Origin: Palleronia sp. THAF1
GTDB taxonomy: Bacteria > Pseudomonadota > Alphaproteobacteria > Rhodobacterales > Rhodobacteraceae
Length of the DNA stretch: 64,000 nucleotides
Assembly: GCF_009363795.1 (NCBI RefSeq)
Contig: NZ_CP045420.1
Span: forward strand, 2,213,001-2,277,000
Direction of reading: 5' to 3'
Part shown: piece after piece, positions 1 through 60,465 of the stretch
Position numbering within the stretch: the stretch's first letter is position 1
Layout: every line of letters starts with the position of its first letter
The notes under the pieces: model-generated
Databases searched by the model: none
What the model was told of the DNA's origin: nothing
What the model saw: only the letters and a program-made list of their open reading frames with translations
Position numbers and translations under genes: made by a program

Positions 1-1281
1 GCCGACGAGCAACATGATCACCGCGCCGACGACCAGCAGCCCGACCTGGCTTTGCGTCTGCTTCTTGAAGGTCGCGACCTCTTCGGCGCGCTTTTCTTCC
101 GCGGTCTTCTCCTTGGGCTTCTCGGCCTTCGGTTTGGCGGGCGACGGGTTCTCGCGCTTGGGTGGCGGCCATGTTACCTCTCCGCCGTGGGCGATGGTGG
201 AATCCCGGATGACCTGATCTTCCATGTTCTGATTGACCGTGCCGTCCTTCTCGGGCGTCAGGTCGGTCAGCATGTGGCGGATGTTCGTGGAATACAGCGT
301 CGAAGACTGCTTCGCCATACGGCTGGGGAAGTCGGTGTAGCCGATGATGATGACGCCGTTGTCGGTGACGATACGCTCGTCCTTCACCGTCATCTTGCAG
401 TTGCCACCCTTCTCGGCGGCAAGGTCGACGATGACCGATCCGGGCTTCATCGCCTCGACCATCTCCTTGGTCCACAACTCCGGCGCTTCGCGGTTCGGGA
501 TCAGGGCGGTGGTGATGACGATGTCGATCTCTGGCGCTTGCTCCAGGAACAGCGCAAGCTGCTTTTCGCGGAACTCGGGGCTGGATGGGGCGGCATAGCC
601 CCCTTCGCCCACGCCCTCGGTGTCCTCGAAGTCGAGGAACAGGAACTCTGCCCCCATCGATTCGATCTGCTCGGCGGTCTCGGGTCGCACGTCGAACGCG
701 CGCACGATGGCACCCAGCGACGTGGCGGTGCCCAGCGCGGCCAGACCGGCGACGCCAGCGCCGACAACGAGGATCTTCGCGGGCGGCACCTTTCCGGCGG
801 CGGTGACCTGCCCGGTCAAGAAGCGCCCGAAGATATTCGCCGCCTCGATCACCGCGCGATAGCCCGCGATGTTCGCCATGGACGACAGCGCGTCCATCTT
901 CTGCGCGCGGGAAATGCGCGGCACCATGTCCATCGCGATCAGCGTGGCGCCCTTGTCGGCGGCCTTCTTCATCAGCGCTTCGTTTTCGGCCGGGTAGAAG
1001 AACGAGATCAGCGTCTGCCCCTCGCGCATCATCTCGACCTCGGCCTCGGTCGGCGGGCGGACCTTGGCGATCACGTCGCAGGCGTCGAACACGGCCTTGG
1101 CGCTGTCCAACACCTCGACATCTGCACCGCGATACAGATCGTCCGAGATATCCGCGCGCGATCCGGCTCCGGCCTCGATCACGCAGCTATGGCCCAGCTT
1201 CTGGATGGCTTCCGCCGATTGCGGAGTCAGCGCAACCCGCGCCTCGGTTTCCTGGCTTTCCTTGACGACACCGAACTTCAC
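1..1281 (-). CDS. pntA: NAD(P) transhydrogenase subunit alpha, 3' end outside window
   Basis: Proton-translocating transhydrogenase alpha subunit; with PntB it transfers hydride between NADH and NADP+ at the inner membrane. The first 427 codons are visible. The N-terminal alanine-dehydrogenase-like fold is followed by the RAQKMDALSSMANIAGY signature (about residues 126-141) and a Rossmann loop GAGVAGL (174-180). Near the window edge there is a charged Lys/Glu-rich linker and then the first residues of a membrane segment (GLLVVGAVIMLLVG), so the fused alpha form with C-terminal helices is likely. I chose a GTG start at 1281 because AAGGGGAG lies just upstream and the residues after it (KFGVVKE) match the family start. 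The gene continues past base 1, where pntB would be expected, but that is not visible. Confidence 0.95.
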   Translation of the reverse strand, partial: MKFGVVKESQETEARVALTPQSAEAIQKLGHSCVIEAGAGSRADISDDLYRGADVEVLDSAKAVFDACDVIAKVRPPTEAEVEMMREGQTLISFFYPAENEALMKKAADKGATLIAMDMVPRISRAQKMDALSSMANIAGYRAVIEAANIFGRFLTGQVTAAGKVPPAKILVVGAGVAGLAALGTATSLGAIVRAFDVRPETAEQIESMGAEFLFLDFEDTEGVGEGGYAAPSSPEFREKQLALFLEQAPEIDIVITTALIPNREAPELWTKEMVEAMKPGSVIVDLAAEKGGNCKMTVKDERIVTDNGVIIIGYTDFPSRMAKQSSTLYSTNIRHMLTDLTPEKDGTVNQNMEDQVIRDSTIAHGGEVTWPPPKRENPSPAKPKAEKPKEKTAEEKRAEEVATFKKQTQSQVGLLVVGAVIMLLVG

Positions 1282-4495: not shown

Positions 4496-5275
4496 TTACG
4501 CAATCGCGCGCGTCGGAACGGATCGCGCTCCCGCGGACCACATGCGAACCGCGTCGCCAAAGGCGGTGAACAGCTTGCGCGAGACCGGATCAATCCCCGA
4601 ATTGTATTCGGGATGCCATTGCACCGACAGCGTAAAGCCCGGCGCGTCCGCCACATAGGCCGCTTCCGGCGTGCCGTCCTGCGCGCGACCGTCGATCACG
4701 AAGCGCGGCCCCGCCTTCGTCACACCCTGCCCGTGCAGCGTGTTCGTCCGCACCGTCCGCTCGCCCATCAGCCGATGGAACGGGCCGCCGTCGCTGAAGG
4801 TCACGTCATGGCGCAGGGCGAACTTTTCCTCGATGGTGCCGTCGGGCGGCATGCGATGGTTCTCGATCCCCGGCAGATCGCGGATTTCGGGGTGCAGGGT
4901 CGACCCGAAGGCGACGGCCACTTCCTGATACCCACGGCAGATCGCCAGATAGGGCTGGCCCCGCTTGGTCAGCGCCCGGATCAACGGAAGCGCCACGCTG
5001 TCACGACCCCGGTCGAAATCACCGTGCGCTTCGGTCTCTTCGTGGCCGTATTCTTCAGGGTGGACATTGGGTCGCCCGCCGGGGAACAGGAAGCCGTCGC
5101 AGCTGTCCATCAGATCTTCGATCGACACCAACGCCGGGTCGGCGGGCACGATCAACGGCAGCGCGCCGGTGACATTCGCCACCGAGTCAGAAATCATCAA
5201 TCCGCCGCCATGGATGCGGTAGGTGTCGTTCAAAAGATGATGATTGCCGATGATGCCGACGACCGGGCGGGACAT
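4496..5275 (-). CDS. gamma-glutamyl-gamma-aminobutyrate hydrolase family protein (class I GATase)
   Basis: A 259-aa peptidase C26 / PuuD-type enzyme. The glutamine-amidotransferase nucleophile is Cys113 in AICRGYQE, and the His221/Glu223 pair sits in QWHPEY. FPGGRPNVHPEEY near residue 65 matches the oxyanion/substrate loop of this family. Members hydrolyse gamma-glutamyl amides such as gamma-Glu-GABA in putrescine use, but no other puu genes are beside it, so the actual substrate is open. The stop codon lies next to the end of the convergent HdeA-like gene. Confidence 0.88.
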   Translation of the reverse strand: MSRPVVGIIGNHHLLNDTYRIHGGGLMISDSVANVTGALPLIVPADPALVSIEDLMDSCDGFLFPGGRPNVHPEEYGHEETEAHGDFDRGRDSVALPLIRALTKRGQPYLAICRGYQEVAVAFGSTLHPEIRDLPGIENHRMPPDGTIEEKFALRHDVTFSDGGPFHRLMGERTVRTNTLHGQGVTKAGPRFVIDGRAQDGTPEAAYVADAPGFTLSVQWHPEYNSGIDPVSRKLFTAFGDAVRMWSAGARSVPTRAIA

Positions 5276-5350
5276 AAGACGCTCCTGAATGCAGTCGCGG
5301 CAATATAGTCACGCCGGGGCCGACCTTACAACCGGCCCCCGGCGTTGCGA

Positions 5351-5773
5351 TCAGGCGGCGCCGGTCAGCCCGGCTGCCTCCAGCCCCTTCATTCCGACCA
5401 TCGCATCGTTGTCAGATGTATCGCCGGTGATGCCCAGCGCACCGATCACCGCGTCGCCGTCCTTGATGAGGATACCGCCCGGCACCGGCACCACGGCACC
5501 GCCGAATAATCCATTCATCGCGGTCATGAAGTAATGCTGATCTTCGGCCCGCTGCATCTGCGCCGATCCGGGCATCCCAAGCATTACCGCACCATGTGCC
5601 TTTCCATGCGCGACAGCGAACCGGCCCGGAGCCGCCCCGTCCTGACGCTCGAACGCCAACACATGCCCGCCCGCGTCCAACACCACGGCCGACAGCGGCT
5701 TCAATCCCGCTTCGGCACCGGCGTCGAATGTGGCGCGGATCGCCGTGCGCGCTTGGTCCAAGGTGATTTTCAT
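5351..5773 (-). CDS. glcG: GlcG/HbpS family protein (DUF336)
   Basis: A 140-aa protein of the GlcG/HbpS (DUF336) family, with the typical LSAVVLDAGGHVLAFERQDGA start region, the VAHGKAHGAV helix and a late GALGITGDTSDNDAMV segment. In enterobacteria glcG lies in the glycolate locus; related proteins bind haem or are of unknown function. Here it directly follows malate synthase G in the same direction (34 bp apart), which supports a link with glyoxylate metabolism. The glcDEF oxidase genes are absent from the window. Confidence 0.85.
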   Translation of the reverse strand: MKITLDQARTAIRATFDAGAEAGLKPLSAVVLDAGGHVLAFERQDGAAPGRFAVAHGKAHGAVMLGMPGSAQMQRAEDQHYFMTAMNGLFGGAVVPVPGGILIKDGDAVIGALGITGDTSDNDAMVGMKGLEAAGLTGAA

Positions 5774-34657: not shown

Positions 34658-35581
34658 TTATGCCGCCAACGAAGGGGCGTCCTCGGTCCGCAGTCCAGCA
34701 CCGGGCAGACGCGCCATCATCTGGGCATCAACCTCGACCACTTCGAATGCGGCGGGACGCGCGAAGAGCGCGCGCAACAGGGCGTTGGTCAGCGCGTGGC
34801 CGGACCGAACCCCGGTGTAGCGGCCAAGGATCGGCATTCCGGCCAGCGCCAGATCACCCAGCGCGTCCAGCATCTTGTGTCGCACGGCCTCATCAGCGTG
34901 GCGCAGACCACCCGGCGACAGAACTTCGGCCCCATCTACCACCACGGCATTGTGATAGGTACCGCCCAAGGCCAGCCCACGTTCGCGCATGGCATCCACG
35001 TCGGACGCACGGCAGAAGGTGCGGCTGTCGCACAGTTCATGCACGAAGGTGCCGTTGGCGAGGCTCAAACGCTTTTTCTGGTGGCCGATGGCGGCGTCGG
35101 CGAAATCGATGGAAAAGTCTATTTCCAGCCCGTCCGCCGGCTCCAATCGAGCGTAGGCAGGCCCGTTGCGGACCTCGACCACGTCACGTAGCCGCAACGC
35201 GCGGATCGGGCGGGTCTGGTCCTGCAGACCAGCTTCGAGGATCGCGGCAACGAAGGGCGCGGCGGATCCATCAAGGATCGGCACTTCCGGACCGTCGATC
35301 TCTATCAGCAGATTGTGGATGCCGCACCCGGCGACGGCGGCCATCACATGCTCGATGGTTGACACGCTGGCACCAGCGGCGTTGCGGATCAGCGTGCACA
35401 ATTCACCTTGCTCGACCGCGTGCCACATGGCTGGGATCATCGCATCGCGCGCATCCAGATCAGAGCGTTTAAACCACAGGCCATGATCGGCAGGCGCCGG
35501 GCACAGACGCATACTCGCGGGCTTTCCCGAATGCAGGCCGACGCCGTTGAAAACCACTGCCGTGCTCAATGTCTTTTGCAT
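34658..35581 (-). CDS. lpxC: UDP-3-O-acyl-N-acetylglucosamine deacetylase
   Basis: A 307-aa zinc enzyme that commits UDP-acyl-GlcNAc to lipid A synthesis in the cytoplasm. The start MQKTLSTAVVFNGVGLHSG is typical. Zinc ligands are His78 (STIEHVMAAVAG), His235 and Asp239 (HKMLDALGDLALAG), and His262 in SGHALTNALL is the general acid. Length and motifs are close to E. coli LpxC (305). It follows the ftsZ terminator in the same direction, so it may have its own promoter in the 225-bp gap. Confidence 0.97.
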   Translation of the reverse strand: MQKTLSTAVVFNGVGLHSGKPASMRLCPAPADHGLWFKRSDLDARDAMIPAMWHAVEQGELCTLIRNAAGASVSTIEHVMAAVAGCGIHNLLIEIDGPEVPILDGSAAPFVAAILEAGLQDQTRPIRALRLRDVVEVRNGPAYARLEPADGLEIDFSIDFADAAIGHQKKRLSLANGTFVHELCDSRTFCRASDVDAMRERGLALGGTYHNAVVVDGAEVLSPGGLRHADEAVRHKMLDALGDLALAGMPILGRYTGVRSGHALTNALLRALFARPAAFEVVEVDAQMMARLPGAGLRTEDAPSLAA

Positions 35582-35742
35582 GTTCGTCGCTCCTCGGATG
35601 GGTGCGTTTCTCCGCAATCATCAACTAGGCAGCCACGGCCCGCCACTCAAATCACCGATTGCAACGGTTGTGTAACACATGCCCAAACGGGTGCGCGGAA
35701 CCCCGCCCCCTGCCAGATAGCTTCTTATAAAGCACTGTAATA

Positions 35743-54870: not shown

Positions 54871-55850
54871 AGCTCGTCTTTCAGTGTCAGAGCGGGCAAG
54901 CCCAACGTCGTGCGATCCACCGGCCCGGCGGGCGCGTCGGTGCGCCGGGCAATACGCAGCCGCGCGGATCGCGCACGGGGATTGGCGTCGACTTCCGTAT
55001 GATCCGCCGCGATTCCGCGCGAAAGCTCTGTGAAGCGCGGGTCGGGTTGTTCGGTGACGGGTGCGTGCCTGCTGCCACCCCCCACTTTGCCACCGCGCTG
55101 TTGCAAGAAGCGTTTGACGACGCGGTCTTCCATCGAATGAAACGTCACGACGGCCAACCAGCCGCCCGGCTTCAACGCACGCTCGGCGGCTTCCAGCCCG
55201 GCGACAAGCTGGCCGAATTCGTCGTTCACCGCGATGCGCAGGGCTTGGAATGTGCGGGTCGCGGGATGGCTTTGGCCCGGCTTGGGGCGCGGCAAGAGGC
55301 CCTCGACGATGCGCGCAAGCTGTCCGGTCGTCACGATTCTTCCATGAGCACGTTCGGCCACCAGCTTCTTGGCGATCCGGCGTGAGGCACGCTCTTCGCC
55401 GTATTGATAAAGGACATCGGCCAACTTTCCTTCTGGCAGATCGGCCACAAGGTCAGCCGCCGTGGGGCCGTCGGTGCCCATGCGCATGTCCAGCGGACCG
55501 TCGCGCATGAACGAAAAGCCGCGTTCCGCCTGATCGAGCTGCATGGAAGAAACGCCAAGGTCCAGCACAACGCCATCCACAGGATCGCCTGCAAGGGTGT
55601 CAAGTTCGCCGAAGACGCCTTCGACAAGACGCAACTGGTCGCCGTAGACCCCGGACCATTCCGCGGCCATGGGGAAGACGCTGGGATCGCGGTCAATGCC
55701 GATGACCGTATCAGCCCCGGCGGCCAGCAAACCCATGGAATAGCCCCCTGCCCCGAACGTCCCATCGACCCACGTGCCGGTGATCGGCGCGCAGGCTTGC
55801 AGGATCGGCGTCAACAGGACGGGGATGTGCGGGGGGCCGGGAGCGCTCAT
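54867..55850 (-). CDS. rsmH: 16S rRNA (cytosine(1402)-N4)-methyltransferase
   Basis: A 327-aa SAM-dependent methyltransferase (MraW). [16 protein letters not shown] and [16 protein letters not shown] form the SAM site. [28 protein letters not shown] follows, and [39 protein letters not shown] are further blocks. It modifies C1402 of 16S rRNA in the decoding centre. It overlaps mraZ and ftsL by four bases each. Confidence 0.98.
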
Positions 55851-56368
55851 ATTTCGATCAGTTTCGGACGCGTGCCCGCAAGGTTTTCAAGCGGATCGCG
55901 CGAGGGGTCGTAGTTCAGCTCTGGCGCGGCGGCGGGTCGGGCTTGGGTTTCGGCGTAATCCGCCGGATTCCACATGCGGAACTTGTCGCCCCGGCCTGCG
56001 AACAGCACCGTATCATTAGCCGCTATCCCCAGCTTTTCGCGCCCGCGCGGGGGTAGGACGATGCGGCCGGTCTCATCCAGATACATGGCCTGCGTCTGCT
56101 CGAAGACAGCTTTTTCAAGGTCCAGGCGGCGCGGATCGCCCGCGTCCCAGCCCAAAATCTGGATCTGCACGGCCTTGAACTGCTCGGCGGTCATGCCGGT
56201 CATGTATTTGGTCCGTTCGTCACCGAACATCAGCACGAAACCGGCCGGAGAGCCTGGCTCTCGACCGGGATGGCCTGCATCTATGACTTTTCGGAAGTCA
56301 GACGGGATCGATAGACGGCCTTTGCCATCCATCTTGTTCTCTTGGGTGCCGATGAAGATGTCGAACAC
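55847..56368 (-). CDS. mraZ: transcriptional regulator MraZ
   Basis: A 173-aa MraZ, an AbrB-like DNA-binding protein that in E. coli represses the dcw cluster. Two similar halves are visible: [23 protein letters not shown] and [20 protein letters not shown]. The start is GTG 56368, preceded by AAGGGGA nine bases upstream. It overlaps rsmH. The leader ahead of it carries a small-RNA terminator and candidate MraZ repeats in the promoter. Confidence 0.95.
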
Positions 56369-56417
56369 CGCAAAGTCCCCTTGACCTGTCCCGCCCGTTT
56401 CGATTCTGATTCGCCTT

Positions 56418-56460
56418 AACGAAAACGGCGATCCGAACTGCTGCCACTGTTCGGATCGCC
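56418..56460 (-). terminator. intrinsic terminator in mraZ leader (3' end of UpsM-like RNA)
   Basis: On the minus strand GGCGATCCGAAC and GTTCGGATCGCC form a perfect 12-bp stem with a 10-base loop, then GTTTTCGTT. It lies 58 bases before the mraZ start, so most transcripts from the leader promoter could stop here and not enter the dcw cluster. Confidence 0.9.
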
Positions 56461-56661
56461 GCCTTCAACCCCGTTTGGGGAATGTCCGATGGCGCACGTC
56501 ACCTGGGGGGATGTCTGCTCGCCCGCGCACCGGATCTGGTCGTAACGAAGAAGCGCTACATGATTTGCCTGTAGGAAACTCTCGCCTCGCTCACTTTTCT
56601 TGTTGGTCTTGATGTCAGGACTTGCGGGCTTTTCGCCTCTTTCGTCCACCGCCTCTTCGAT
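56418..56661 (-). ncRNA. upsM: UpsM-like leader small RNA of the dcw cluster
   Basis: In Rhodobacter sphaeroides the mraZ leader gives an abundant sRNA, UpsM (about 206 nt), made by premature termination before dcw and known from relatives. Here the same position holds a strong terminator (56427-56460 stem) and a candidate promoter (56668-56696), which would give an RNA of about 240 nt. The sequence itself was not aligned with known UpsM; the call rests on place, size and terminator. A frame through this region runs into the terminator and is not coding. Confidence 0.65.
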
Positions 56662-56667
56662 GACAAA

Positions 56668-56696
56668 GGTATTCCATGGGAAATCGTGGGCGGCAA
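56668..56696 (-). promoter_or_regulatory. candidate dcw/UpsM promoter with MraZ-type TGGGN repeats in the spacer
   Basis: Minus-strand -35 TTGCCG (56696-56691) and -10 AATACC (56673-56668) are 17 bases apart. In the spacer, the plus strand reads TGGGA-AATCG-TGGGC (56677-56691): two TGGGN units with a five-base gap, the binding pattern known for E. coli MraZ. A third unit in phase was not found. The -10 is a weak match. Confidence 0.45.
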
Positions 56697-57120
56697 GAAA
56701 AAATCCGGCCAACATGGGCCGACCTCGGCATCGGGTATGGCATCAATCACACAGTTTCGTGAGAATTTGTCCGCTTTGGAACTGCATATTGTGCTATCAT
56801 GAAGATTCGTAAGCACATCTGGTGCTAAAAAAGTTTGGCGCAAATTTGTCAGAATAGTGGCAGATCGGGCCAGGCGCGGCCGTCGCATCTTATCGACCCA
56901 CCTGAATCCCGCTCGCGACCACCCCTTTCCCACCCGGAATCCATGATGTCCCATCAGACATCCGGAGAATTGGAAGCCGACGCCGATTCCCGCGCCTTGC
57001 GTTTGCTGCATAGCAGCATTGAGGTATCGGAGGATTGTGCAGCTGCAGCACGTGCCCCAAGTTAGCGTCAACGGCGACAAAAGATCGATCGCCAACCAGT
57101 CAAACTAATGAGGCACCGAC
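56697..57120. other. intergenic region, no gene seen
   Basis: Divergent region between the dcw leader and the DUF1127 gene. It holds an AT-rich block at 56755-56860 with a short inverted repeat (AGCAC 56812-56816 / GTGCT 56822-56826) and GCTG/CAGC palindromes near 57010 and 57050. No open frame looks coding. The promoter of the DUF1127 gene should lie here; no clear -35/-10 pair was found by eye. Confidence 0.5.
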
Positions 57121-57333
57121 ATGGCATCCTTGAACACCACATACGCCGCCCCCCGCGCTGGCAACCGTTTCGCCCAGACCCGCGCCGGCCTGCGTCAGCG
57201 TTTCGAGGCGTGGAAAGTTTACCGCCGCACGCTGAACGAACTCAGCCAGCTGAGCGACCGCGAGCTGAACGACCTCGGCCTGCACCGCTCTGCCATCCGC
57301 GGCATCGCGCTGGAATCGGCATACGGGCACTAA
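57121..57333 (+). CDS. DUF1127 domain-containing protein (CcaF1-like)
   Basis: A 70-aa basic protein with the DUF1127 (YjiS-like) core: FEAWKVYRRTLNELSQLSDRELNDLGLHRSAIRGIAL. It is directly followed by four CcsR-like twin hairpins, as in R. sphaeroides, where RSP_6037 (CcaF1) is cotranscribed with CcsR1-4. DUF1127 proteins of that species bind RNA and affect RNA turnover. The N-terminal 20 residues are variable. A GAGGCACCGAC stretch precedes the ATG. Confidence 0.9.
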   Translation: MASLNTTYAAPRAGNRFAQTRAGLRQRFEAWKVYRRTLNELSQLSDRELNDLGLHRSAIRGIALESAYGH

Positions 57334-57344
57334 TTCGAATTCGG

Positions 57345-57425
57345 GTCGCGCGCTCGTCTCCTCCCCGAGCGCCGCGTGACCTGATCGGGCGGCGACACCG
57401 ACCTCCTCCCCGGTGTCGCCGCTCC
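57345..57425 (+). ncRNA. CcsR-like sRNA 1 (two CUCCUCCC-loop hairpins)
   Basis: Hairpin 1 is 57350-57372 (7-bp stem GCGCTCG/CGAGCGC, loop TCTCCTCCC). Hairpin 2 is 57389-57422 (12-bp stem GCGGCGACACCG / CGGTGTCGCCGC, loop ACCTCCTCCC). The loops carry the anti-Shine-Dalgarno-like CUCCUCCC of the CcsR (cuckoo RNA) family. It begins about 15 bases after the DUF1127 stop; exact RNA ends depend on processing. Confidence 0.85.
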
Positions 57426-57431
57426 CAAGAC

Positions 57432-57514
57432 AACAGAGGTTGCGACCGTCCACCTCCTCCCGGACGGAAGCTTCATCGGCGGCGAGTTCACCTCCTCCCG
57501 GGCTCGCCGCTTTG
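57432..57514 (+). ncRNA. CcsR-like sRNA 2
   Basis: Hairpin 3 is 57446-57467 (CCGTCC/GGACGG, loop ACCTCCTCCC). Hairpin 4 is 57479-57510 (8-bp GCGGCGAG/CTCGCCGC plus three wobble or GC pairs, the same loop). It starts with AACAGAGGTTGCGA, shared with sRNA 3, showing these are true repeat copies about 88 bases apart. Confidence 0.85.
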
Positions 57515-57519
57515 AAACA

Positions 57520-57600
57520 CCAGAGGTTGCGAACGCCCACCTCCTCCCGGGCGAACGCTTCATCGGCGGCGGGTCCACCTCCTCCCGGGCCCGCCGTCCC
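57520..57600 (+). ncRNA. CcsR-like sRNA 3
   Basis: Hairpin 5 is 57534-57553 (CGCCC/GGGCG, loop ACCTCCTCCC). Hairpin 6 is 57567-57596 (10-bp stem CGGCGGGTCC / GGGCCCGCCG with one G-U, the same loop). The AGAGGTTGCGA lead is kept from sRNA 2. Confidence 0.85.
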
Positions 57601-57605
57601 GAAAT

Positions 57606-57694
57606 TCAGACTGCAACCGCCCACCTCCTCTCGGGCGCGCGCATCACTGGCGGCGAAGCGCACCTCCTCCCGCGCTTCGCCGCTTTTTCGTTTT
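57606..57694 (+). ncRNA. CcsR-like sRNA 4 with terminal terminator hairpin
   Basis: Hairpin 7 is 57618-57637 (CGCCC/GGGCG; loop ACCTCCTCTC, one base off the motif). Hairpin 8 is 57650-57683 (12-bp stem GCGGCGAAGCGC / GCGCTTCGCCGC, loop ACCTCCTCCC) followed by TTTTTCGTTTT. The last hairpin therefore doubles as intrinsic terminator of the DUF1127-RNA transcript. It ends 14 bases before the convergent uvrD stop. Confidence 0.87.
57650..57694 (+). terminator. intrinsic terminator of the DUF1127-CcsR transcript
   Basis: A 12-bp perfect GC-rich stem with a ten-base loop, then TTTTTCGTTTT. It ends the RNA array and separates it from the convergent uvrD gene. Confidence 0.9.
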
Positions 57695-57707
57695 CAGACA
57701 GTGTTTT

Positions 57708-60275
57708 CTAGAACGGTGTGTCGCCTGCGCTGTCGGCGTCGACCAAGAAGCGCGCGACAACCTTCTTGTCGCCAGCCTTGTCGAAGCCGACGTCCAGCTT
57801 GTCGCCCTCGATCCCGTTGACGGTGCCGTAGCCGAACTTGGTGTGGAACACCCGATCGCCGGTGGAGAACGCCGACACTGCCTCGGCGTCGATCACCATG
57901 TTGCGGCTTTCTTTCGGCTGGCTCATCCCACGGTGCTGGCTGCGCGACTGCATCCGCTTCCAGCCGGGCGAGTTATAGACATCCGCTTTCGCCACGCGCT
58001 CGTGCAGTTCCGATTCCGCCTGCGCCATGATCTGCGGCGATGCGCTGGCCGCCATACCCGCCGCGCCGTAACCGCCACCATACAGGCCCGGAGGCGTCAG
58101 AACGTCCACGTGATCGGCGGGCAATTCATCAATAAAGCGCGACGGCAGCGCCGATTGCCATTGGCCATACACACGACGGTTGGCAGCGAAGGAAATCGTG
58201 CAAACCTCTTCGGCGCGGGTGATACCGACGTAGGCAAGACGACGCTCTTCTTCCAAACCCTTCTTGCCCGACTCGTCCATGGACCGCTGCGACGGAAACA
58301 AGCCGTCTTCCCATCCCGGCAGGAACACGGCGGGAAACTCCAGACCCTTGGCAGCGTGAAGCGTCATGATCGACACCTTCTCGCCCTCCTGCTCGGACCC
58401 GTTGTCCATGATCAGCGACACGTGTTCAAGGAACCCTTGCAGGTTCTCGAACCCCTCCAGCGCCTTGACCAGTTCCTTCAGGTTCTCCAGCCGACCCGGC
58501 GCTTCGGGCGTCTTGTCGTTCTGCCAGAAGGTCGTGTAGCCCGACTCGTCTAGGATGATTTCCGCCGTCTCGATATGGCTGCGCCCCTGATCCCGCACCA
58601 TGTCGGCCCAGCGCGCCAGCCCGTCGACCAATTCCCGTAATGCCGCGCCGCCCTTGCCGCCCAAGCCTTTATCTTGCAGCAGAATGCGCGCGCCATCCAC
58701 AAGGCCCACGCCATTGGCGCGCGCCGTCGTCTGGATCTTCTGTTGCGCAATATTGCCAAGGCCGCGCTTGGGCGTGTTCACGATCCGCTCGAACGCCAAA
58801 TCATCGTCGGGCGATACAGCGAGGCGGAAGTAGGCCATGGCATCACGGATCTCCATCCGCTCGTAAAAGCGGGGGCCGCCGATGACGCGATACGGCAGGC
58901 CGATGGTCAGGAACCGATCCTCGAACGCGCGCATCTGGTGCGACGCGCGGACAAGAATTGCAATTTCATCCAGACCATAGGACTTCGGCAGAGGCAAATT
59001 ATCCCGGCCTGCTTCGCTCAGTGTTTCAGCGCGCGCCAAGTTGACCTGATGAATATCTCCCATCACACCCGCAGAAACCTTGCCGCCTTTAGCTATTCTC
59101 TCAGCTTCTTGAGCAGGTGTCTGAGACCGTGGATTATTCCGGCGTCGAGCGACCGAGGAAGTTCCGCTATTAAGTGCCTCGACCTCTTCACCGACCCAGC
59201 GCGCTTCCTCGTCGCCATCCCAATGGCCGATCAGGCGCACCTTCTCGCCGGTTTCCTCAGCGGTCCATAGCGTCTTGCCCAGCCGCCCCTCGTTCGCGTC
59301 GATCACGCTGGATGCGGCGGCCAGGATATGGGGCGTCGAGCGGTAATTCTGTTCCAGCCGAACGACCTTGGCGCCCGGGAAGTCCTTCTCGAACCGCAGG
59401 ATGTTGCCCACTTCGGCCCCGCGCCAACCGTAGATCGATTGGTCATCGTCGCCCACGCAACAGATGTTCTTGTGGTCTTGCGCCAGCAGCCGAAGCCACA
59501 GGTACTGGGCGACGTTCGTATCCTGATACTCGTCCACCAGAATGAAACGGAACCAGCGTTGGTACTGGGCCAGCACGTCCGGGTGGTCCTGGAAGATGGT
59601 GACGACGTGCAACAGAAGATCGCCGAAATCGACGGCGTTCAGCTCCAACAGGCGACGTTGATAAAAGTCATACAGCTCGGTGCCGCGATGATTGTAGGCC
59701 GAGGCATCGGCGGCGGGCACCTTCGCAGGCGTCAGCGCACGGTTCTTCCAACCGTCGATCAGACCGGCCAACTGCCGCGCGGGCCAGCGCTTTTCATCGA
59801 TGTTCTCGGCCACGATCAACTGCTTCAGCAGGCGTAACTGGTCATCGGTGTCCAGAATCGTGAAGTTCGACTTCAGCCCCGCCAGCTCTGCATGCCGCCG
59901 CAACAGCTTGACGCAGATCGCGTGGAACGTGCCCAGCCACGGCATCCCCTCGATCGTCTGGCCCATCAGCCCACCGACGCGGTTCTTCATCTCGCGCGCG
60001 GCCTTGTTGGTGAAGGTCACGGCCAGAATCTCGTTCGGGCGCGCGCGGCCCGTCATCATCAGGTGCGCAATGCGCGCTGTCAGGGCCTTGGTCTTGCCGG
60101 TGCCCGCACCCGCCAGCATCAGGACCGGCCCATCCAGCGCCTCGACCGCCGCGCGCTGCGCGGGGTTCAGGCCCTCCAGATAGGGCGCGGCATGGACGGC
60201 GGACGCCCGCTGCGACAGAGGAACGGCGGCGTCGAACGCATCGGATTCGTCTTCAGGATACATGGGGTTCAGCAT
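57708..60275 (-). CDS. uvrD: ATP-dependent DNA helicase UvrD/PcrA type
   Basis: An 855-aa SF1A helicase. Walker A is GAGTGKTK (56-63); KNRVGGLMG, DEYQDTN (Walker B), GDDDQSIYGWRGAEVGNI and LEQNYRSTPHIL follow. Further on are TLHAAKGLEFPAVFLPGWEDGLFPS and the C-terminal Tudor-like DRVFHTKFGYGTVNGIEGDKLDVGFDKAG. It unwinds DNA in nucleotide excision and mismatch repair. I use MLNPMYPEDE as the start; a longer frame adds a basic stretch unlike the family. Residues about 370-430 hold an unusual insert with lower GC (see findings). Confidence 0.95.
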   Translation of the reverse strand: MLNPMYPEDESDAFDAAVPLSQRASAVHAAPYLEGLNPAQRAAVEALDGPVLMLAGAGTGKTKALTARIAHLMMTGRARPNEILAVTFTNKAAREMKNRVGGLMGQTIEGMPWLGTFHAICVKLLRRHAELAGLKSNFTILDTDDQLRLLKQLIVAENIDEKRWPARQLAGLIDGWKNRALTPAKVPAADASAYNHRGTELYDFYQRRLLELNAVDFGDLLLHVVTIFQDHPDVLAQYQRWFRFILVDEYQDTNVAQYLWLRLLAQDHKNICCVGDDDQSIYGWRGAEVGNILRFEKDFPGAKVVRLEQNYRSTPHILAAASSVIDANEGRLGKTLWTAEETGEKVRLIGHWDGDEEARWVGEEVEALNSGTSSVARRRNNPRSQTPAQEAERIAKGGKVSAGVMGDIHQVNLARAETLSEAGRDNLPLPKSYGLDEIAILVRASHQMRAFEDRFLTIGLPYRVIGGPRFYERMEIRDAMAYFRLAVSPDDDLAFERIVNTPKRGLGNIAQQKIQTTARANGVGLVDGARILLQDKGLGGKGGAALRELVDGLARWADMVRDQGRSHIETAEIILDESGYTTFWQNDKTPEAPGRLENLKELVKALEGFENLQGFLEHVSLIMDNGSEQEGEKVSIMTLHAAKGLEFPAVFLPGWEDGLFPSQRSMDESGKKGLEEERRLAYVGITRAEEVCTISFAANRRVYGQWQSALPSRFIDELPADHVDVLTPPGLYGGGYGAAGMAASASPQIMAQAESELHERVAKADVYNSPGWKRMQSRSQHRGMSQPKESRNMVIDAEAVSAFSTGDRVFHTKFGYGTVNGIEGDKLDVGFDKAGDKKVVARFLVDADSAGDTPF

Positions 60276-60465
60276 AGGCCGCTCTGTCCAAAAGGGAAAG
60301 GGCGCGTTCCGCCTTCGTTCCCACACGCAAAGATCAGCTATCCATTTGGTTCCTCGGCGCTTTCTCGCCACGGCATTTCACTTCCTGGAACGGAACCCGG
60401 CGCGACAGGCTTGGCTGTCCAGAACCGGCGCCGTGTGTGGCTGCCGGACAGCTTAGGAGTGACCA

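Follow-up and report, generated by a model that had tools for sequence, protein, structure and literature searches.

A CcsR-like cuckoo RNA array behind a DUF1127 gene in Palleronia sp. THAF1, with a candidate LysR-type site in its promoter

The window, by which we mean the whole 64-kb stretch of Palleronia sp. THAF1 DNA analysed here, carries on its plus strand (57341-57684) eight hairpins with anti-Shine-Dalgarno (aSD) loops, located between a DUF1127 ORF and a convergent uvrD gene. Judged by its sequence, this array is a CcsR-like cuckoo RNA array with the CIN1 layout, another case of a known kind. We consider it very probable that it belongs to an ordinary CcsR-like cuckoo locus, where a ccaF1-like mRNA transcribed under stress would have its 3' UTR cut into about four small RNAs (sRNAs) able to pair with Shine-Dalgarno (SD) sequences. 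This reading is based on the anatomy of the array, the covariation of its stems, its conservation and synteny, a promoter element, and its similarity to CcsR1, and it adds the array, with good support, to the known cases of a widespread RNA system.

Anatomy, folding and covariation of the array

As in the cuckoo/CcsR layout, a short DUF1127 gene, identified by its PF06568 match, lies directly upstream of the array, with hairpin 1 starting 8 nt past the last base of the stop codon. The genes and hairpins of the locus are the following:

55847-56368, minus strand: mraZ, upstream of the DUF1127 gene
57121-57333, plus strand: ccaF1-like DUF1127 ORF of 70 aa (Pfam PF06568, E 4.6e-16, 58.7 bits, cut-off 23.3)
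57341-57384, plus strand: hairpin 1, loop TCTCCTCCC, inner stem (57350-57372) inside a longer outer stem, -25.3 kcal/mol, z -4.1
57387-57424, plus strand: hairpin 2, 14-bp stem, loop ACCTCCTCCC, z -6.0
57446-57467, plus strand: hairpin 3, 6-bp stem, loop ACCTCCTCCC, z -2.2
57478-57511, plus strand: hairpin 4, 12-bp stem, loop ACCTCCTCCC, z -3.6
57534-57553, plus strand: hairpin 5, 5-bp stem, loop ACCTCCTCCC, z -1.9
57565-57598, plus strand: hairpin 6, 12-bp stem, loop ACCTCCTCCC, z -4.2
57618-57637, plus strand: hairpin 7, 5-bp stem, variant loop ACCTCCTCTC, z -1.8
57649-57684, plus strand: hairpin 8, 13-bp stem, loop ACCTCCTCCC, z -5.9, probable intrinsic terminator stem
57684-57694, plus strand: T-rich tract TTTTTCGTTTT, directly after hairpin 8
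57708-60371: uvrD, convergent, downstream of the array

All eight stem-loops announced in the preliminary description of this DNA were recovered by our hairpin scan, long hairpins (even numbers) alternating with short ones (odd numbers). The spacing of about 85-89 nt given there holds for the even loops, placed at 57402, 57491, 57578 and 57663 (89, 87 and 85 nt apart), and for the later odd ones (87 and 85 nt), but not for hairpins 1 to 3, which are separated by 96 nt. The loop, described as fixed, is exactly ACCTCCTCCC in six of the eight hairpins and shows the announced one-base change in hairpin 7, whereas hairpin 1 departs from that description both by its loop and by its longer outer stem, which the minimum-energy fold keeps while rearranging the inner one. 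Strong differences between the stems, also claimed there, hold only in part: the same lower stem (GGCGGCG..CGCCGC) returns in the long even hairpins, both inside an array and from one array to another, and variation is greater in the upper stems and in the short odd hairpins.

Chance is a poor account of the motif count and fold of this region. The sequence CCTCCTCCC occurs seven times in the window, six of them inside the array, against 0.60 expected, and none of 100 shuffles reached seven. When both strands of the entire window were scanned for hairpins with a CTCCTC core and a score of at least 8, a single additional candidate was found (35578-35607). The folding energy of the whole array region is -178.6 kcal/mol (z -6.4), with z scores from -1.8 to -6.0 for single hairpins, the weakest being the short odd hairpins 3, 5 and 7, for which 3, 10 and 8 of 200 shuffles, respectively, folded equally well.

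The stems of the array hairpins also covary, as befits the base-paired stems of cuckoo-type RNAs. In a sample of 30 hairpins from three arrays (that of the window, L002 and L004), the covariation score was 0.711, compared with a mean of 0.246 in shuffled alignments (none of 500 reached the observed value) and with 0.11-0.26 when slid, so that the covariance support whose absence the preliminary description would have held against itself is present. Likewise, 83.3% of the cells were paired versus 56.0% after shuffling (again reached by none of 500) and 33-51% when slid. By contrast, the number of pairs with changes on both sides (13 of 13) was not above chance, with a shuffled mean of 11.6 and 81 of 500 shuffles matching it; altogether, four of the five measures lay beyond all 500 shuffles and one did not. 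Similar pairing was seen in a wider set of 89 distinct hairpins out of 135, selected by the exact loop ACCTCCTCCC with no stem required, from 10 congeneric loci and from those named loci with at least two scanned hairpins (among the best 80 of 523): 86% of pairs 3-11 were paired in register versus 33-41% when slid. There is hence almost no likelihood that the array is a chance or coding feature, namely a repeat within a real ORF such as the 187-codon ORF on the minus strand (57100-57663) or those on the plus strand. Open frames do exist across the array, but long ones are common in GC-rich DNA, the stems covary, the motif count exceeds that of every shuffle, and the layout recurs in relatives.

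The role of terminator proposed for hairpin 8 agrees with the T-rich tract right behind it, which makes it a probable terminator stem. A terminator scan of 56300-57800, allowing loops of 3-8 nt, did not list this hairpin. Among named relatives, at least seven T in 16 nt were found at the end of 43 of 60 last hairpins versus 6 of 404 others. The hairpins might then act only in cis, stabilising and terminating the 3' end of the DUF1127 mRNA, which would account for the strength of the stems and for the terminator-like hairpin that closes the array. We find this very unlikely since stability does not need a fixed loop, yet at least two hairpins with the CTCCTC core occur in 62 loci (among the best 80 of 523), and since CcsR1-4 of Rhodobacter sphaeroides are described as acting on a target, the flhR mRNA (PMC8307010).

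Family membership, distribution and proposed function

Four stretches, on the same strand as the hairpins, match the CcsR1 covariance model (RF02791) with 45.4, 37.2, 32.1 and 28.8 bits (best E 9.9e-10; gathering score 65.3), and two match the ar14 model (RF02344) with 49.7 and 46.3 bits (gathering score 58.8). As no match reaches the gathering score, the array is kept out of both RF02791 and RF02344, and an Rfam search of the whole 64-kb window at gathering score gave no hits. The CcsR/cuckoo reading of the preliminary description was right in kind, given the matches to both models and a layout common to 12 loci above the CcsR1 cut-off, and the covariance-model search that it recommended did retrieve CcsR1, albeit below the gathering score. 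That threshold admits only a small part of the family it is meant to describe: at E of at most 0.001 the CcsR1 model matched 324 of 394 genomes of the family and exceeded the gathering score in 17 of 394, both counts being lower bounds as stricter filters lose weak matches. Only one of 14 control genomes, Thermus composti, gave a match, below the cut-off. In the best 12 loci above the cut-off (L121-L132), a DUF1127-like motif, an array and the promoter box described below (at most three mismatches) were found together in all 12.

DUF1127 was detected (E of at most 0.001) in 26 of 40 relatives, and at least two aSD hairpins (core CTCCTC, score of at least 7.5) lie behind the gene in 17 of the 30 loci fetched; counting L027, where another DUF1127 copy adjoins the L012 array, raises this to 18. 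The CcsR1 model matched (E of at most 0.001) in all 13 congeners and in 23 of the 40 relatives overall. Ten of these congeners have at least two aSD hairpins beside a DUF1127 gene (2 to 13 each) and in three we found fewer than two; contig starts truncate two of the arrays (L014 and L015), and uncut arrays of two or more contain 4 to 13 hairpins. The arrays of two congeners (L009, 1894-2442, and L010, 1797-2288 on the minus strand) are built largely from almost identical units that follow each other every 104 nt or so, suggesting a recent tandem duplication.

At a broader scale, of 292 genomes sampled within the order (those shown belonging to the same family), 278 contain two copies of CTCCTCCC separated by 20-50 nt, the backward control giving none in the genome of the window and up to six in some others. 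Among the best 80 of 523 confirmed DUF1127 loci, scanned for hairpins with the CTCCTC core that the scan itself requires, 62 have at least two hairpins within 1.2 kb, two have one and 16 have none. Synteny is also frequent: 51 of these 80 loci have an upstream mraZ gene on the other strand, 55 have a convergent uvrD downstream, and 43 have both. Hairpin number near the gene varies from 2 to 18 across the 62 loci with at least two. By analogy with the anatomy of CsrB, such arrays could be sponges, their alike loops titrating an RNA-binding protein (DUF1127 or another) and the number of hairpins setting the capacity. The loop fixed on variable stems, this range of copy number, and the RNA binding reported for the co-encoded DUF1127 protein in R. 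sphaeroides (PMC10253847, PMC12501420) would all fit such a sponge, which we nevertheless deem very unlikely, given that the loop is an aSD sequence and that the same loops in NfeR1 are reported to silence ntrB in Sinorhizobium meliloti, an effect abolished by mutation of the three loops (PMC10746234).

If the locus is, as we favour, an ordinary CcsR-like one, a stress promoter ahead of the DUF1127 gene would produce a single transcript with the ccaF1-like ORF and the array, ending at hairpin 8. Cleavage of its 3' UTR within the unpaired spacers would release about four sRNAs of some 85 nt with two hairpins each, the loops of which (ACCUCCUCCC or a close variant) would pair with GGAGG-type SD sites and block translation of the targets, while the DUF1127 protein would bind RNA and tune maturation. 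For transcription, cleavage by RNase E, target pairing and the role of the protein, this model borrows from the literature on R. sphaeroides, where the CcaF1 protein is reported to affect maturation (PMC10253847, PMC8625941, PMC8307010), and on S. meliloti. A genome-wide search for perfect 8-nt sites before ATG (GGAGGAGG-N3-12-ATG) retrieved six instances versus one for the backward pattern, a count too small to name targets or to establish a specific regulon.

Several other elements deserve mention. The same genome has a second DUF1127 gene (C1:2899339-2899539, L151) with 34% identity, which has no CTCCTC-core hairpin within 1.5 kb. Outside the array, the genome contains ten more CCTCCTCCC places, with an 8-bp stem in L160, a 5-bp stem in L154 and no or negligible stems in the others. 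The L160 hairpin (148-173, minus strand; genome C1 around 2991945-2991953, minus strand) is a lone aSD hairpin, CCAGGCGG-ACCTCCTCCC-CCGCCCGG, located about 10 nt past the apparent stop codon of what is presumably an ammonium transporter gene and ahead of a terminator-like hairpin; it may be a 3' UTR cuckoo RNA with just one hairpin. Upstream of the DUF1127 gene, the long mraZ leader contains on the minus strand (56422-56463) a strong intrinsic-terminator-like hairpin, as judged by folding, followed by TTTTCG, a situation that suits the R. sphaeroides sRNA UpsM, whose terminator is reported 84 nt before mraZ (PMC5089854). A further terminator-like site (56705-56724, minus strand) lies between the array promoter and this leader.

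The promoter element and an LsrB-like regulator

The promoter of the DUF1127 gene seems to carry a conserved candidate site for a LysR-type regulator of the VtlR/LsrB kind, close to a putative core promoter recognised by sequence and by the alignment of relatives; the preliminary description does not mention this element:

57007-57021, plus strand: box TGCATAGCAGCATTG, resembling the VtlR/LsrB (LysR-type) binding motif (2 mismatches in 15 positions to the motif of PMC12595884)
57035-57063, plus strand: RpoH-like core promoter, TTGTGC (57035-57040), 14 nt, CCCCAAGTT (57055-57063)

In relatives, the region upstream of DUF1127 reads TGCATAGCAGCATTG-N12-13-TTGTGCA-N2-YGCAGCA..CCTATNTT or CCCCATGTT. 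A scan of 56300-57800 for sigma-70 promoters detected none. The two mismatches of the window box are counted against the reverse complement of the printed VtlR motif, CAATGCAGCCATGCA (PMC12595884). This motif at up to three mismatches is found at two places in the window, with 2.8 expected, and is weak alone; the case for the box is therefore made by its place and conservation and not by the motif match alone. A genome scan with TGCATRGCWGCATTG, a pattern written so as to include the window copy, found the exact sequence here and one place with one mismatch, its backward control giving one.

The box is present with at most two mismatches in 39 of 64 non-redundant upstream regions (out of 68 before repeat removal, from related and so not independent genomes), always on the plus strand, compared with 0.23% of 1280 resampled controls; in the other 25 it has at least three mismatches. 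Its distance to TTGTGC is 12-13 nt in all 61 aligned promoters, the remaining seven of the 68 regions being three repeats or regions near an edge and four loci (L003, L041, L045 and L113) where the proximal element is absent; the invariance of TTGTGC and GCAG in this alignment is built in, as both served to find its rows. In several Aliiroseovarius loci the distal box is poor. We tabulated the bases of the distal box for 57 of the 61 rows, after dropping four with six mismatches and placing each row by its best match to a motif holding GCAT. A palindrome of the type recognised by PhaR (consensus CTGC-N3-GCAG) was considered for this box and rejected, as its left half varies (C at -1 in 45 of 57 copies) whereas GCAT and the following C and G are fixed in 57 of 57. 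Compared with the reported LsrB consensus, GCAT-N3-TG-N3-T (PMC8844928), GCAT and G are present in 57 of 57 copies, the last T in 56 and the first T of TG in 11; the window has A at this position (position 8), its sole departure from the consensus. The box reported for NfeR1, TGCA-N6-GCAT (PMC10746234), fits the promoter-proximal element (TGCANNYGCAGCAT) in many relatives, the window reading TGCAGCTGCAGCAC.

We found 11 LysR genes in the genome and compared two of their proteins with PDB. For one of them (C1:1160652-1161572) the closest entry was 9HH1 (E 1e-73, 251 bits; next 117), and for the second it was 3hhg, LsrB (9hh1) coming third. LsrB-like relatives (E of at most 1e-60) occur in 58 of 61 genomes of the family, including this one, and in 56 of 56 of good quality, with one per genome. 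The 25 best NCBIfam models for each of 10 LysR proteins out of the 11 included none named LsrB or VtlR. The gene trxB, which we take to be a neighbour of LsrB genes, lies here at C1:858349-859254, about 46 kb from the nearest LysR_substrate match, so that this synteny was not seen. 9HH1 is the structure of LsrB from Agrobacterium tumefaciens, a protein called unique to Rhizobiales in the 2025 work concerned (PMC11975290).

Directly behind the LsrB-like gene lies a match to SorX (RF02784), with 49.9 bits versus a gathering score of 46.6:

L163 4511-4590 (SorX) and 4650-5573 (LsrB-like gene), minus strand; genome C1 around 1160510-1161572

The same arrangement was found in 9 of the best 12 loci, own included. 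AbcR1 is reported to adjoin vtlR in A. tumefaciens and Brucella abortus (PMC8844928), and SorX may be its positional counterpart. This LysR neighbour disagrees with a review that gives RSP_0847, an OmpR-type factor, as the host gene of SorX in R. sphaeroides (PMC9438474).

We put forward, with evenly balanced confidence, that a putative LsrB/VtlR orthologue could target the DUF1127-CcsR locus through the distal box at 57007-57021 and a second site over the RpoH-like core, and that LsrB, SorX/AbcR1, DUF1127 and the cuckoo RNAs would make up one old alphaproteobacterial module. LsrB would then not be confined to Rhizobiales, contrary to the statement in PMC11975290. Among the open-access matches listed, we found no link between LsrB/VtlR and CcsR or ccaF1, which does not establish its absence from print; PMC12501420 names RSP_6037 and has LsrB in its reference list only, and a roseobacter proteome study (PMC6308992) is said to name LsrB once. 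The connection between the array and LsrB is possibly unreported. If it is true, the redox/metabolic input of LsrB and the stress input of RpoH would be joined at one promoter. This candidate regulator for loci of the CcsR/ccaF1 type would tie the literature on LsrB/VtlR-AbcR-DUF1127 in Rhizobiales to that on RpoH-CcsR-SorX in Rhodobacter.

Comparison with known systems

The defining study of the cuckoo RNA family and the CIN1 locus is reportedly that of Reinkensmeier and Giegerich (2015). Cuckoo RNAs share with the window adjacent hairpins, CCUCCUCCC loops (six of the eight exact here, those of hairpins 1 and 7 being variants), variable stems and an adjoining short DUF1127 gene, whereas the window has eight hairpins in a single array; we compare it with the family as described in PMC10253847 and, as earlier work, in PMC3927594. 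The latter describes loops that stay fixed while the stems vary, and a kinship with RS0680a, and the former an association of DUF1127 with CcsR that is often found in alphaproteobacteria.

NfeR1/ar14 of S. meliloti (RF02344) likewise has aSD loops and a promoter that LsrB is reported to activate and that carries a similar box (PMC10746234), but it has three hairpins, an RpoD-type promoter and a gene of its own instead of a DUF1127 3' UTR. In the VtlR/LsrB regulon described in Rhizobiales, a LysR-type regulator activates sRNA (AbcR) and DUF1127 genes via a GCAT-N3-TG-N3-T box (PMC8844928, PMC12595884, PMC7486931); its Rhodobacterales counterpart, a candidate site known from sequence, differs in the rarity of T at position 8.

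Finally, the window differs from the CcsR1-4/ccaF1 (RSP_6037) locus of R. sphaeroides (RF02791) in its sub-gathering scores of 28.8-45.4 bits, and the likeness is drawn through the model and the literature. RNase E processing, stress induction and Hfq binding belong to the picture of CcsR1-4 in R. sphaeroides. In both loci a DUF1127 ORF precedes four double aSD hairpins and a terminator (a probable one in the window). Ahead of the R. sphaeroides gene lies an RpoHI/RpoHII promoter, of which the RpoH-like TTGTGC-N14-CCCCAAGTT of the window may be a counterpart.
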